Made by a program: the position numbers and the translations under genes
Shown: piece after piece, positions 2,949-32,368 of the stretch
Numbering within the stretch: the stretch's first letter is position 1
Layout of the letters: each line of letters opens with the position of its first letter
Notes under the pieces: generated by a model
Databases searched by the model: none
What the model saw: only the letters and a program-made list of their open reading frames with translations
What the model was told of the DNA's origin: nothing
Source of the DNA: a virus
DNA length: 32,368 bases
IMG/VR virus record: IMGVR_UViG_3300047312_000170
Location: 1 to 32,368 of that record
Reading direction: 5' to 3' (one strand)

Positions 2949-2983
2949 ATTGCAAAGATTGACCCACATGCTACACTGAGGCT

Positions 2984-3067
2984 GGGCCTGTAGCTCAGTT
3001 GGTAGAGCGGTGCCGACATGCTTCGAGCAGAGGGCACTTGTCGCGGGTTCGAGTCCCGTCAGGCCCA
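2984..3067 (+). tRNA. tRNA-like gene with an enlarged anticodon arm
   Basis: A near-perfect tRNA frame: 7-bp acceptor GGGCCTG/CAGGCCC (2984-2990, 3060-3066), D-stem GCTC/GAGC with loop AGTTGGTA, a 5-nt variable loop, T-arm GCGGG-TTCGAGT-CCCGT and discriminator A3067. No CCA is encoded. The anticodon arm is abnormal: stem GTGCC/GGCAC (3010-3014, 3033-3037) encloses 18 nt instead of 7. Inside, TGC/GCA closes a further hairpin whose 7-nt reading CTTCGAG would give anticodon TCG (Arg) with U33. An alternative helix CGACA/TGTCG (3014-3018, 3039-3043) competes with it. Whether this RNA is a working tRNA is uncertain. Confidence 0.6.
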
Positions 3068-3140
3068 TGGCGTGGCTATCGCATACAACCTATTATTGAC
3101 TAGGATGCTAAAATGGAAGTGTTCAAATCTAAAACGGCAT
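3067..3140 (+). tRNA. Possible degenerate tRNA between two tRNA-like genes
   Basis: Exactly 74 bases separate the tRNA-like genes on either side. The ends can pair as an acceptor (ATGGCGT with ACGGCAT, 6 of 7 pairs), and a canonical T-loop motif GTTCAAATC sits at the correct 5+7 base distance from the 3' end. However, the T-stem does not pair well and no D-arm consensus is visible. A CCTA/TAGG hairpin lies where an anticodon arm would be. I read this as a decayed tRNA or chance; low confidence. Confidence 0.25.
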
Positions 3141-3216
3141 GATGATCGTAGCTCAGGGGTTAGAGCGTCGTATTGTGAAGATACGGAGGTGGATGGTTCA
3201 AGTCCTTCCGCTTATC
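3141..3216 (+). tRNA. tRNA-His(GTG)-like gene, degenerate
   Basis: The D-arm GCTC-AGGGGTTA-GAGC is canonical and the T-loop is TTCAAGT. The acceptor (3142-3148 with 3209-3215) has one mismatch and one G-T pair; the T-stem GATGG/CCTTC has one T-T mismatch. G at 3141 faces C at 3216, the G-1:C73 pair that is the hallmark of tRNA-His, and the loop contains TTGTGAA, giving anticodon GTG. The anticodon stem TCGTA/TACGG closes a 9-nt loop (or 6 bp with a 7-nt loop), so the arm is not standard. No CCA is encoded. Confidence 0.55.
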
Positions 3217-3252
3217 CTATACTGTTTGCGAGAGAGCACATCGTGGTACCAC

Positions 3253-5886: not shown

Positions 5887-7430
5887 ACTTCCCAAACTGG
5901 ATACGCATTCCTAAGCGGCGCTCCCGTGTGATAGAACGCCCGTATGATGTCCCTAAATACCCTTCCAACTCGCATACCTCAGAGATGTACGAGCGCAACG
6001 TGGGTATCATCAACCTAGAAGCAGCATCAAAGCGTAGTGCTAAAGCCCCACAGTCGAGAGGGCCTAAAAATCTCAGCATGGCATGGGATGATACCTCCCT
6101 CGGCCTAGGCAGTGTCGTGACACGCGACGGGCTGCTAGATGACAGGCAAAAGAAAGACATTTATTACCAGGTCTATCTTGGTGATCAGTGGGTATCAGGC
6201 TGTGTGGATAGGATAGCTGCGCGTATGACATCAGGCGGATGGGAAAGTGTTGAAGTTGAGAAGGGCAAGGGGAGCGAAAAGAATGCAGGAAGAATAAAAG
6301 ATCTGCTGTCATTTGAAAGTCTGGAAGAAGATTTCTTGCAATTCTTACGCTCAATAGTAACAGATGAGCTCATATTTGGAGAAGCATTTTGTGAGTTAGG
6401 GTATCTAGGGGATGAAGTGGTAGCACTGTACCCAATTGACAGTCTCACCATGACGCCCTACTTCGATAAGCACGGAACTGTCACAGGATATACTCAGAGG
6501 CTAGAGAAGAGTACAGACATAGTGCGATTTGAGCCGCGTGAGATTGTCAGATGGTGGTTGCCTGACCCGAAAGCAAAGAAGAAAGCGCTCTCACCAATTG
6601 AGAGGCTAAGGGACCCTGTATTCTTGGATCGGAGCATGGTTACATGGGGAGAGAAGTTCTTTCGCCAAGGTGGCAAGCCTAGTTACTGGGTAGGAATGGG
6701 AGATGACTCAAATGAAGCTGATGCGAGCAGATATATCAAATGGTATAAAGAAAACTACACCGGCATGGAAAATGCTCATATCCCGCCTGTGATGTATGGA
6801 GGAAGCAAGATCAATGAGTACGGTAAAGGCTCTATAGAGCTTGACTTTGACAAAAGTCAGAATAAGCAGCGTGATAGGGTCTTGGTCGTCTATGGCGTGC
6901 CACCTGCTCAGCTCAACATCATAGAGAGTGGCAACTTGGGAGGTGGTACAGGTGATAGCCAGGAGAAGTCATTCGATTATAATACAGTAGCACCACATAA
7001 GAGAACGATACTTGAGAAGTTCAATTATAGAGCTATAAAAGTAGGGAAGGGTATTGAGGATTGGATAATAGACGTACATACAGCAGACTATCGAGACGAT
7101 AATGAGATAGCAGATGTTGAGGACAAAGGCATCCGCAATGGCTCTCTCACGATCAATGAAGCACGTGAGGGTAGAGGTCGCTTAGCTGTGAAAGGTGGCG
7201 ATACGAACGCTATCATCACAGGCAATATCATCACACCTGTCTCTCGACTAGAGACTATGGAAGAGGAGCAGACACAACAGGCTCAGCTCTCACTGCAAGG
7301 TGCTCAGCAGGCCATGCAACGTATGCAGCAAGGTGATAATCAGGACAATCCAGATGATAACCAAGATGGGAACCAACCGCCAAAGGATAAGCAACCTCCT
7401 AAGCAGAAGGATGAGAAACCGAAAGGATAG
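5877..7430 (+). CDS. Portal protein
   Basis: A 517-residue protein expected to form the dodecameric ring at the capsid vertex through which DNA is packaged. Recognised by its place directly after terL, by the 'GDQWVSGCVDRIA' helix typical of phage portals near residue 101, and by the conserved C-terminal region 'VYGVPPAQLNI' followed by a Gly-rich segment and FDYNTVAPHKRTILEKFN. The last 60 residues are Gln/Asp/Pro/Lys-rich and probably disordered. AGGAGG lies upstream within the end of terL. Confidence 0.9.
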   Translation: MAINFPNWIRIPKRRSRVIERPYDVPKYPSNSHTSEMYERNVGIINLEAASKRSAKAPQSRGPKNLSMAWDDTSLGLGSVVTRDGLLDDRQKKDIYYQVYLGDQWVSGCVDRIAARMTSGGWESVEVEKGKGSEKNAGRIKDLLSFESLEEDFLQFLRSIVTDELIFGEAFCELGYLGDEVVALYPIDSLTMTPYFDKHGTVTGYTQRLEKSTDIVRFEPREIVRWWLPDPKAKKKALSPIERLRDPVFLDRSMVTWGEKFFRQGGKPSYWVGMGDDSNEADASRYIKWYKENYTGMENAHIPPVMYGGSKINEYGKGSIELDFDKSQNKQRDRVLVVYGVPPAQLNIIESGNLGGGTGDSQEKSFDYNTVAPHKRTILEKFNYRAIKVGKGIEDWIIDVHTADYRDDNEIADVEDKGIRNGSLTINEAREGRGRLAVKGGDTNAIITGNIITPVSRLETMEEEQTQQAQLSLQGAQQAMQRMQQGDNQDNPDDNQDGNQPPKDKQPPKQKDEKPKG

Positions 7431-28414: not shown

Positions 28415-28794
28415 ACACAACCATTGTCAACGTTCTTATCGATCAATTCTCGTTGTACATCCTTCCACCGCTCATAGCATATTGTGTATCAGTGAGCATT
28501 GTGTATGTCAGGAAGGCATTTGAGAGACTTCCATCAAATGTACGCAAGATTGTCTGGGACTACACAAATACGGTAGTGAAGTCCATTATGCAAAAATCCG
28601 ATAAGGACTGGACGGATGAGCAAAAGAAAGACTATGCAGTAGGGGAGATACGCTTGCTTCTTGTCAAGACAAGCAAGAAAGTAAGTGCTATGGTATCAGA
28701 TGAGTTGATCGAGCATGTTATCGAGCAGGTCATCTTTGAAATCAAAAAGACGGCACCACCTACACAGCCTGCTATCAGGAGAGCAAGCTTGTGA
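28411..28794 (+). CDS. Holin, LL-H type
   Basis: A 127-residue protein with ATGA overlap with the upstream gene. One N-terminal membrane segment (about 10-32, FSLYILPPLIAYCVSVSIVYV) is followed by amphipathic helices with 'SNVRKIVWDYTNTVVKSIMQ' and 'DELIEHVIEQVIFEIKK', matching the Phage_holin_LLH layout in which a long cytoplasmic part follows one membrane segment. It would form the hole that lets the endolysin out. Its stop lies directly at the right end of the TnpB element. Confidence 0.65.
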   Translation: MNTTIVNVLIDQFSLYILPPLIAYCVSVSIVYVRKAFERLPSNVRKIVWDYTNTVVKSIMQKSDKDWTDEQKKDYAVGEIRLLLVKTSKKVSAMVSDELIEHVIEQVIFEIKKTAPPTQPAIRRASL

Positions 28795-28799
28795 CATCT

Positions 28800-28820
28800 C
28801 CCCATGGATAAATCCAGGGG
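28800..28820 (-). repeat. Right-end hairpin of the TnpB element
   Basis: CCCC and TGGAT pair with ATCCA and GGGG around a 2-nt loop with one bulged A. On the minus strand it lies just after the tnpB stop, the place of the omegaRNA scaffold end in this superfamily; the guide would be the bases immediately beyond it, inside the 3' end of the holin gene. Confidence 0.7.
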
Positions 28821-28830
28821 CTTCCCATTC

Positions 28831-30006
28831 TCACGAACGAGAGTTTCCTGTTTCAACGGGAGTTGCCTGTCGAACACGGGTCCGAACAGGTCTTACACTC
28901 CCTCCACAAGCAGACGCCGAGAGCCCCTCGGCCAGAATGTTACGAGCGGCGTTGATGTCTCTATCTTGGACAACGCCACATTCAGGACATGCCCATTCAC
29001 GCACGTCCAAAGTTAAGGAGTCTACCACATGCTTGCAGTCATAGCAGGTTTTAGAAGATGGGAAGAAGCGGTCAATCTTGACCAGGGTGCGTCCGTACCA
29101 CTGACTCTTGTAGTCCAGTTGTCGGACAAACTCTCCCCATCCTACATCGCTGATGGCTTTTGCAAGCTTGTGGTTTCTGACCAAATTCTTGACTGCCAGA
29201 CTCTCGACGCAAATCACTTGGTTTTCGTGAATTATGCGTGTCGAAAGTTTGTGCTGGTAGTCTCGACGCTGGTCATTGATACGAGCATGCACACGCGCTA
29301 CTTTGAGCCGCGCTTTGGCTCTGTTCTTGGAGCCTTTCTTCTTTTTTGCATGCCGACGTTGAGCTTTTGCAAGAGCTTTTTCGCTCTTTGCGTAGTACTT
29401 GGGATTGTCGATGCTTTCTCCAGTCGAGAGAGCCACCATGGATTTGATGCCAAGATCAAGTCCAACCATTTTGTTGACGACTGGAAGAGGTTCGATGTTG
29501 TCCTCTACCAGCATGGAGACAAAGTAGCGGTCAGCGCAATCTTTGGAGATCGTAACCGAGCTAGGTTTAGCATCTTTGGGCAAATCACGATGCAAGTGGA
29601 TATCCAAGGGAGCATTCATTTTTGCCAGAGTGAGGTGCTTGCCATCCCACTTAAACGCATCACCAACGTAGGTAGCAGACTGGTTCCCCTGTTTTTTCTT
29701 GAATGTGGGATACTTGGCGCGTCCCTCAAAGAAGTTTTTGTATGCTGTATCCAAGCGACGGAGGGATTGCTGCAATGGAACGGCAGCAACATCTCCGAGC
29801 CAAGGATACTCTTTCTTCAGGCACGGCAGCATAGCCGAGAGGGCATTGTAGTTGAGCTTTACACCAAGCTCGGCATAGGCAGTCTTGCGGGTGTTGAGCC
29901 CCCAATTGTACGCGAAGCGGCAACATCCGAACGTTTGCGCCAAGAGGCGCTTTTGCTCGTCGGTCGGATAGAACCGATACTTGAATGCCCGCTTCTGTTT
30001 GCTCAC
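28831..30006 (-). CDS. tnpB: TnpB RNA-guided nuclease
   Basis: A 391-residue OrfB/TnpB, GTG start three bases after the RHH gene, AAAGG upstream. N-terminal WED/REC-like part starts 'FKYRFYPTDEQKRLLAQTFGCCRFAYNW'. RuvC residues are all visible: Asp184 in VGLDLGIKS, Glu268 in CVESL and Asp350 in QDRDINAA. A Zn ribbon has CYDC (321-324) and CPEC (340-343). Length and motifs are those of active TnpB proteins, which use an omegaRNA from the element's right end to cut target DNA next to a short motif. Nothing looks broken. Confidence 0.95.
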   Translation of the reverse strand: MSKQKRAFKYRFYPTDEQKRLLAQTFGCCRFAYNWGLNTRKTAYAELGVKLNYNALSAMLPCLKKEYPWLGDVAAVPLQQSLRRLDTAYKNFFEGRAKYPTFKKKQGNQSATYVGDAFKWDGKHLTLAKMNAPLDIHLHRDLPKDAKPSSVTISKDCADRYFVSMLVEDNIEPLPVVNKMVGLDLGIKSMVALSTGESIDNPKYYAKSEKALAKAQRRHAKKKKGSKNRAKARLKVARVHARINDQRRDYQHKLSTRIIHENQVICVESLAVKNLVRNHKLAKAISDVGWGEFVRQLDYKSQWYGRTLVKIDRFFPSSKTCYDCKHVVDSLTLDVREWACPECGVVQDRDINAARNILAEGLSASACGGSVRPVRTRVRQATPVETGNSRS

Positions 30007-30009
30007 TGC

Positions 30010-30162
30010 CTATTTGCCTTTCTGATTTCGTTTGATATGCTCTTCCATTACGGTCAAGATCTCCCCATTCAGAGATCTGTTATTGCGCTTAGCAATCTCT
30101 TTCAATTGCTCCAAGATGTGAGCAGGAAACCGCAACGTGAGCGCTTTTATATCGTCTTTCAT
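30010..30162 (-). CDS. Arc-like ribbon-helix-helix DNA-binding protein, 50 aa
   Basis: A 50-residue gene on the minus strand directly upstream of tnpB. 'KALTLRFPAHILEQLKEIAKRNNRSLNGEILTVMEEHI' has the RHH layout: a short strand (LTLRFP), helix A, the NRS(L)N(x)E turn and helix B, as in Arc/Mnt-type repressors. It has no Shine-Dalgarno; its ATG lies six bases after a TACAAT -10, suggesting a leaderless message. It probably binds its own promoter and controls tnpB. Confidence 0.75.
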   Translation of the reverse strand: MKDDIKALTLRFPAHILEQLKEIAKRNNRSLNGEILTVMEEHIKRNQKGK

Positions 30163-30168
30163 GCAACC

Positions 30169-30197
30169 ATTGTACTATCAATTTGGTTGAATGTCAA
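30169..30197 (-). promoter_or_regulatory. Consensus sigma70 promoter of the RHH-tnpB operon
   Basis: On the minus strand TTGACA (30192-30197) is 17 bases from TACAAT (30169-30174), five to six of six matches in each box. The start point falls on or next to the RHH ATG. The -35 overlaps the left arm of an inverted repeat (30196-30208/30231-30243), a possible operator. Confidence 0.75.
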
Positions 30198-30243
30198 TAG
30201 GCTATGGGGCACTTGCTTTAGCCATTCACTCCCATAGCTTATT
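30196..30243. repeat. 13-bp inverted repeat at the element's left side
   Basis: AATAGGCTATGGG (30196-30208) is complementary to 30231-30243 with one mismatch; loop 22 nt. It could be the left-end hairpin of the IS605-type element, or an operator, as it touches the -35 box. Confidence 0.7.
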
Positions 30244-30254
30244 GCGATAGGTGC

Positions 30255-30283
30255 TTGACCGGACCTGCTCTATACCGTAGAAT
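30255..30283 (+). promoter_or_regulatory. Sigma70 promoter upstream of a structured leader
   Basis: TTGACC (30255-30260) and TAGAAT (30278-30283), 5 of 6 matches each, with 17 bases between. The start point would be at about 30290, the first base of the inverted repeat that follows. Confidence 0.65.
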
Positions 30284-30290
30284 TAGTGCA

Positions 30291-30360
30291 TGCCAATCCG
30301 CTGTACAGCCGTTCTGATACCACGGTCGTATTGCATAGATAATTCAATTGCGGATTGGCA
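30291..30360 (+). ncRNA. Structured leader or small RNA
   Basis: An 11-bp perfect stem (30291-30301 with 30350-30360) encloses 48 nt with a second hairpin GCCGT/ACGGT (9-nt loop) and a weaker ATTG/CAAT hairpin, giving a possible three-way junction. It begins at the predicted start point of the promoter and ends 27 bases before the next gene. It is not a recognisable tRNA. It may be a cis-regulatory leader or a separate small RNA. Confidence 0.45.
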
Positions 30361-30387
30361 CTCCTACTTCACAAAGCGAGACGTGAC

Positions 30388-31809: not shown

Positions 31810-32019
31810 CTATCGGCGTCTTGTCCTCTGTCCCCTCTTGATCAGATCGTTCCTGTATCTCTCCTCTATCCCTATGAGCTGCTCACTCTTGGCTATCTCG
31901 AGCTGTAGGCTCATCTGTCCGGACAGGAATGCAGCTCTCTTGCCGACCCTGCTGCGGATTATGTCCTCTACAAAAGGCGGAATCATCGGCTGGTTGGAAT
32001 GGTTGAAAGATCGCAACAT
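31810..32019 (-). CDS. Small basic protein, 69 aa
   Basis: I start at ATG 32019, five bases after AAGGAG; an upstream ATG at 32046 lacks a binding site. The protein has a Pro-rich N-terminus, a central helix (VEDIIRSRVGKRAAFLSGQMSLQLEIAKSEQ region) and an Arg/Lys-rich end (LIKRGQRTRRR). Could bind nucleic acid. Single-gene transcription unit with its own promoter and terminator. No family recognised. Confidence 0.55.
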   Translation of the reverse strand: MLRSFNHSNQPMIPPFVEDIIRSRVGKRAAFLSGQMSLQLEIAKSEQLIGIEERYRNDLIKRGQRTRRR

Positions 32020-32078
32020 ACATTCTCCTTGCTTTACATACAACATGAGCTACTAATGTCTTACTATCAGTTAATCCG

Positions 32079-32087
32079 ATTATACCA
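32079..32087 (-). promoter_or_regulatory. Extended -10 promoter of the rightmost gene
   Basis: TGGTATAAT on the minus strand (TATAAT at 32079-32084 with TGn before it). The -35 region is poor. Lies about 60 bases upstream of the ATG at 32019. Confidence 0.55.
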
Positions 32088-32099
32088 CCGGGCGTCAAA

Positions 32100-32149
32100 A
32101 TGCCTTCTATCTATAACAAAATAGAACATTTGTTATAGATAGAAGGCAT
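32100..32149. repeat. 21-bp perfect palindrome, 8-nt loop
   Basis: Arms 32100-32120 and 32129-32149 are perfectly complementary. On the minus strand TTTT follows, so it could act as a terminator for transcription entering from the right; it may equally be an operator or cruciform site next to the promoter at 32079. Confidence 0.9.
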
Positions 32150-32179
32150 GAAAAAGCCCTCCTGTGATATTGGGCCTCC

Positions 32180-32363
32180 GAGTATGAATGGAACGAAAAA
32201 CAACGCTAAGAGCTTGGAGAGATGATAACGACCGTTATTACACATCCAAAATGGCATGTCATATACGGCATATCACCTATACAAACTGTATAGGTCTTGT
32301 GGGAACACAGAGGTTAAGAGAGAACAAATTTCCTTAGCGTTGTTTTTCGTTCCGTTAGTACTC
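32180..32363. repeat. 184-bp element with 31-bp terminal inverted repeats
   Basis: Perfect 21-bp arms at 32190-32210 and 32333-32353 extend outward to about 31 bp (32180 and 32363) with a few mismatches or G-T pairs. The 122-base interior has no convincing gene but contains two smaller palindromes: ATAACG-AC-CGTTAT (32225-32238) and a 9-bp stem ACCTATACA/TGTATAGGT with 3-nt loop (32275-32295), plus two GGCATnTCA-like repeats (32254-32274). It resembles a MITE or an origin-like region. No target duplication is visible. Confidence 0.7.
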
Positions 32364-32368
32364 AAGGG

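Follow-up and report, generated by a model that had tools for sequence, protein, structure and literature searches.

Miniature elements derived from Tn3-family transposons have been described from Pseudomonas plasmids as 262-bp units with 38-bp repeats and 5- to 6-bp duplications, together with a relative, TIME-RES, that carries a resolvase and a res site (PMC4133298). The res of IS101 (209 bp) is functional and that of TIME244 putative, and structures bounded by TIMEs are known from putative phage-plasmids (PMC13367494). Here we describe the right end of a viral record of 32,368 nucleotides (the window, meaning the whole stretch analyzed), where the initial annotation had marked a palindrome-dense block without a gene and had offered three explanations: a replication origin with iterons, a multi-site operator for the lysis–lysogeny switch, or a non-autonomous MITE. 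The last of these is supported for positions 32173–32368, and the other two find no support there. With 2 bp more past the contig end, this stretch amounts to ∼198 bp and is very probably a miniature inverted-repeat element of the Tn3 family (TIME), carried by a temperate Ktedonobacteria phage. It is a further example of an already known kind, with the plan of a Tn3-derived miniature element, and extends the known locations of such elements to a phage of Chloroflexota.

Like the TIME of Pseudomonas plasmids, the window element is gene-less, has 38-bp terminal repeats (TIRs) of the Tn3 type, and lies in an AT-rich target. The two differ in length (262 vs. about 198 bp), in Tn3 lineage, and in host phylum, and the window element resides in a phage. 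IS101 and TIME244 share with it a miniature Tn3-type plan with a res interior, but they belong to other sequence groups (Tn3/Tn1000 and Tn21), and, unlike that of the window element, their movement is experimental or deduced from duplications. The autonomous Ktedonobacteria transposons of the Tn3 family (L044, L045, and L071) are likewise close, with TIRs 2–3 mismatches from those of the window element; these transposons, in contrast, are 7–11 kb long and carry tnpA and other genes, including tnpR in L045 and L071. A literature search returned no paper with both "Ktedonobacter" and "Tn3."

Terminal repeats and their full-length relatives

Two perfect 21-bp inverted repeats are present at the positions given by the initial annotation: a tight hairpin (32100–32120/32129–32149; 21 of 21 bases paired, 8-nt loop) and a longer repeat (32180–32210/32333–32363) with 122 nt between its arms. 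None of 30 first-order (dinucleotide) shuffles of the window contained a perfect inverted repeat of at least 16 bp with arms no more than 400 bp apart; the real window has two of 21 bp. The longer repeat had been said to extend to about 31 bp, and pairing does continue to that length (28 of 31 bases paired, the inner 21 perfectly), but its true length is 38 bp. The 31-bp repeat is the inner part of 38-bp Tn3-family TIRs, of which the left copy (GGCCTCCGAGTATGAATGGAACGAAAAACAACGCTAAG, 32173–32210, plus strand) begins at 32173 and the right copy (32333–32368, minus strand) loses 2 bp at the contig end, leaving 36 of the 38 bp.

The ends of the repeat were searched for elsewhere, as had been proposed with the MITE reading. 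A 20-mer of the longer repeat, searched in 84,980 species genomes, matched ten stretches, seven of them in Ktedonobacteria (Ktedonobacter racemifer, Tengunoibacter tsumagoiensis, and Dictyobacter arantiisoli, representing three genera); of the other three, two belong to Hymenobacter and one to a Chloroflexi MAG. The Ktedonobacteria matches were mostly convergent pairs, 3–11 kb apart, and alignment of the matches yielded a 38-bp end, GGCCCTTGAGTATGAATGGAACGAAAAACAACGCTAAG. Two elements have full 38-bp ends flanked by a 5-bp target duplication, GTTAA in Tengunoibacter and AATCC in K. racemifer, and both encode large transposases with a Tn3 DDE domain (E about 1e-147). A variant of the same ends is found at L071, where a Tn3 DDE transposase is also encoded. 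The flanks at L070 and at L071/L068 contained no matching 5-bp sequences, which leaves the elements of Tengunoibacter and K. racemifer as the ones with established target duplications. Compared with either end of the K. racemifer transposon that has the AATCC duplication, the left TIR of the window shows two mismatches; the right TIR has two to the L071/L068 ends and three to the Tengunoibacter ends. Ends of 36–38 bp thus lie within 2–3 mismatches of those of elements encoding a Tn3 transposase.

The two Hymenobacter genomes (Bacteroidota) carry the identical 20-bp inner TIR sequence (L016, 5798–5817; L019, 1902–1921) with different outer ends, so this inner end is common to distant Tn3-type elements. 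At another locus, in D. arantiisoli (L048; G002:C157, 1094–1141), two inner TIR halves stand head to head (CTTAGCGTTGTTTTTCGTTCA/TGAACGAAAAACAACGCTAAG), and the joined halves form a 42-bp palindrome consisting solely of truncated transposon ends. Among viral contigs, a 19-mer from the repeat matched one (L004), which at 6133–6161 has a solo TIR fragment of 28 identical bases around the inner left-TIR end and the spacer, with a weak model score and no second repeat arm in the contig. A small ORF of L004, near an integrase and terminase genes, reads through the fragment. Two readings of this shared repeat, as an attachment site and as a shared small gene (the repeat reads LLALFFVPF in both the window and L004), were dropped because the repeat is found in inverted pairs in host genomes.

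The res-like interior and probable derivation of the element

At 77%–80% identity, the DNA between the TIRs matches the region immediately preceding tnpR in L068, L071, and L074 (77% for the res of L071) and also a stretch of L072; the proteins encoded by L068, L071, and L074 are serine resolvases (Pfam PF00239). Two conserved dyads, of the types TAACG-AC-CGTTA and CTATAC-N5-GTATAG, begin 51 bp from each other, both in the window and in each of the four stretches. The two smaller palindromes that had been listed in the block, ATAACG-AC-CGTTAT at 32225–32238 and ACCTATAC-N5-GTATAGGT at 32275–32295, were both located and are these dyads. Homology to the resolvase-upstream DNA extends to the AGGTTAAGAGG leader before the tnpR start and then ends, and the window continues with the inner side of the right TIR. 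On the basis of homology and dyad spacing, we place a res-like resolution site at 32223–32320 (plus strand), comprising dyads at 32223–32240 and 32275–32295 followed by AGAGGTTAAGAG, the leader found ahead of tnpR in full elements. The interior is therefore, by its sequence, homologous to a res with putative resolvase-binding dyads, as in the res-bearing subtype represented by IS101 and TIME244. A 17-mer of a res dyad matched six viral contigs; none of the six fits the element model, and we took these matches as probably due to chance.

The block was described as lacking a gene, and we agree: its largest ORFs are 48–49 aa, none is a credible gene, and the one ORF checked (32111–32257) has no Pfam match. 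Taken together, the Tn3-family TIRs, the res homology, and the palindromes as res dyads identify 32173–32368 (plus strand) as TIR–res–TIR, about 198 bp without a transposase or any other gene, the final 2 bp lying past the contig end.

The element has relatives in three host-family genomes. Diverged, colinear TIR–res–TIR copies are found in G012 (C1:1664078) and K. racemifer (G003; C10:192366, left end degraded), and its left half is found in G020 (C2:111499). These host copies are only about 72%–75% identical over the element. All have the same spacer between the left TIR and res, and for this reason they look like one family, not independent deletions. No viral contig in the collection has the whole element, and searches of the phage and plasmid collections found no similar DNA.

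A matching longer element, L123, is present in G012, a genome from the family of K. racemifer (C1:8819604-8820463). This 0.86-kb element consists of left TIR, AGAGCTTG spacer, res, tnpR, and right TIR, making it a counterpart of TIME-RES (tnpR and res); its outer flanks do not agree as a target duplication. The left part of the window element matches L123 up to ...GGTTAAGAG, and the right part matches from AGAG..CAAATTT onward. This match places a deletion junction at 32316–32332 (plus strand), where AAGAG is common to the sequence before and after tnpR in L123. The window element most likely derives from a TIR–res–tnpR–TIR precursor, with tnpR lost across the short AAGAG repeat. A series from transposon to TIR–res–tnpR–TIR to TIR–res–TIR is thereby legible, with the junction of the probable tnpR loss.

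By this model, the TIRs would be bound in trans by a host Tn3-family transposase (TnpA), and replicative transposition would copy the element to a new site, where the target would be duplicated; a transposon-encoded serine resolvase (TnpR) acting at res, or else RecA, would then resolve the cointegrate. It is very improbable, in our estimate, that the phage itself uses the element's res, with host transposon resolvases resolving multimers of the phage genome or with phage and host transposons swapping modules by site-specific recombination. Were this true, the element would be kept in the phage by selection.

Probable insertion site and competing readings

Two related phages, L083 and L084, have a terminator upstream of a leftward gene that they share with the window, AAGCCGCT...AGCGGCTTTTTCATG. 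Of the matching terminator in the window, just the downstream arm remains (GGAGGGCTTTTTCATG, minus strand); by alignment to the complete L083/L084 terminator, this arm and its T-tail (GGAGGGCTTTTTC) occupy 32150–32162 (minus strand). The TIR starts 10 bases before the arm. Given the single remaining arm and its distance from the TIR, the element appears to have landed in the loop of the phage terminator. The upstream arm would then lie past the inserted element, and a left terminator arm resembling AAGCCCTCC would be expected beyond the right TIR. From the TIR start we predict the left copy of a 5-bp target duplication, TATTG, at 32168–32172 (plus strand), with the right copy past the contig end. 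The contig end itself was likely caused by a repeat present elsewhere in the sample; the element, as a repeat common to host genomes, probably explains why the contig stops there. We rejected the possibility that the contig is a circle simply opened at the element, because the window start has neither TATTG nor the terminator arm.

The contig stops inside the right TIR, and miniature elements are known to mobilise DNA between two copies (PMC4133298, PMC13367494), so the block could be one end of a larger Tn3-family composite (e.g., paired miniature elements carrying phage or host DNA) whose rest lies past the contig end. We consider this very unlikely, since the block is still a complete TIR–res–TIR unit, colinear units of the same length stand alone in other genomes, and the window contains no second copy of the element. 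A phage replication origin or multi-site operator would suit dense palindromes in non-coding DNA, as well as gene orientation and GC skew that switch close to the right end. Iteron-type origins have several direct repeats of ∼15–22 bp, but positions 32060–32368 contain none of at least 12 bp. The TIRs and res account for the palindromes, with the interior better identified as res and the same dyad spacing recurring beside tnpR genes; moreover, no regulator was recognized adjoining the block, and L083/L084 have the downstream gene without it. Both the origin and the operator, as proposed by the initial annotation, are thus highly improbable.

Least probable of all, to the point of being nearly negligible, is an invertible DNA switch in which recombination at the inverted repeats flips the intervening 122 bp. 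Such a switch would be compatible with a short segment between inverted repeats and with the tyrosine integrase encoded at 1705–2742, but elsewhere these repeats delimit large transposons, the interior is a res of the kind that adjoins tnpR, and the DNA between the long repeats yielded no promoter. The switch was also dropped on account of the inverted repeat pairs in host genomes. We therefore retain the miniature Tn3-family element as the reading of 32173–32368.

The adjoining hairpin, the phage, and its host

The other 21-bp repeat is separate from the element. This hairpin (32100–32149; perfect 21-bp stem, 8-nt loop, −30.8 kcal/mol) lies between the terminator and the extended −10 of the leftward gene (TGGTATAAT, 32087–32079, minus strand, from alignment with L083/L084), just upstream of the leftward phage promoter. 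It is absent from L083/L084 and had no other occurrences in our searches, and is a lineage-specific feature of this phage. It is possibly a terminator or a regulatory or protein-binding dyad, and could alone be a regulatory site. The small leftward gene downstream from it (31810–32046, minus strand) has relatives in L083 (83% identical) and L084 (77% identical).

The viral record is that of a temperate phage, with recognized genes for integrase, terminase, portal, major head protein, tape measure, and endolysin. The terminase has 55%-identical relatives in Tengunoibacter, which fits a host among the Ktedonobacteria, a group of soil bacteria; the identity of the element accounts for the palindromic block and further supports this indirect host assignment. 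Directly after the integrase are two tRNA genes (2983–3217), one a tRNA-Ser(TGA) and the other without a clear anticodon. A second insertion is found at approximately 28792–30250, where a TnpB gene of the IS200/IS605 type (28831–30006, minus strand; OrfB_IS605 and TNB domains) is preceded by a small Arc-like ribbon-helix-helix gene (30010–30162). The flanks of this insert are joined in L083, with window positions 28754–28791 and 30253–30380 adjacent at L083 4354–4181, and L083 thus provides an empty site for the TnpB insertion.
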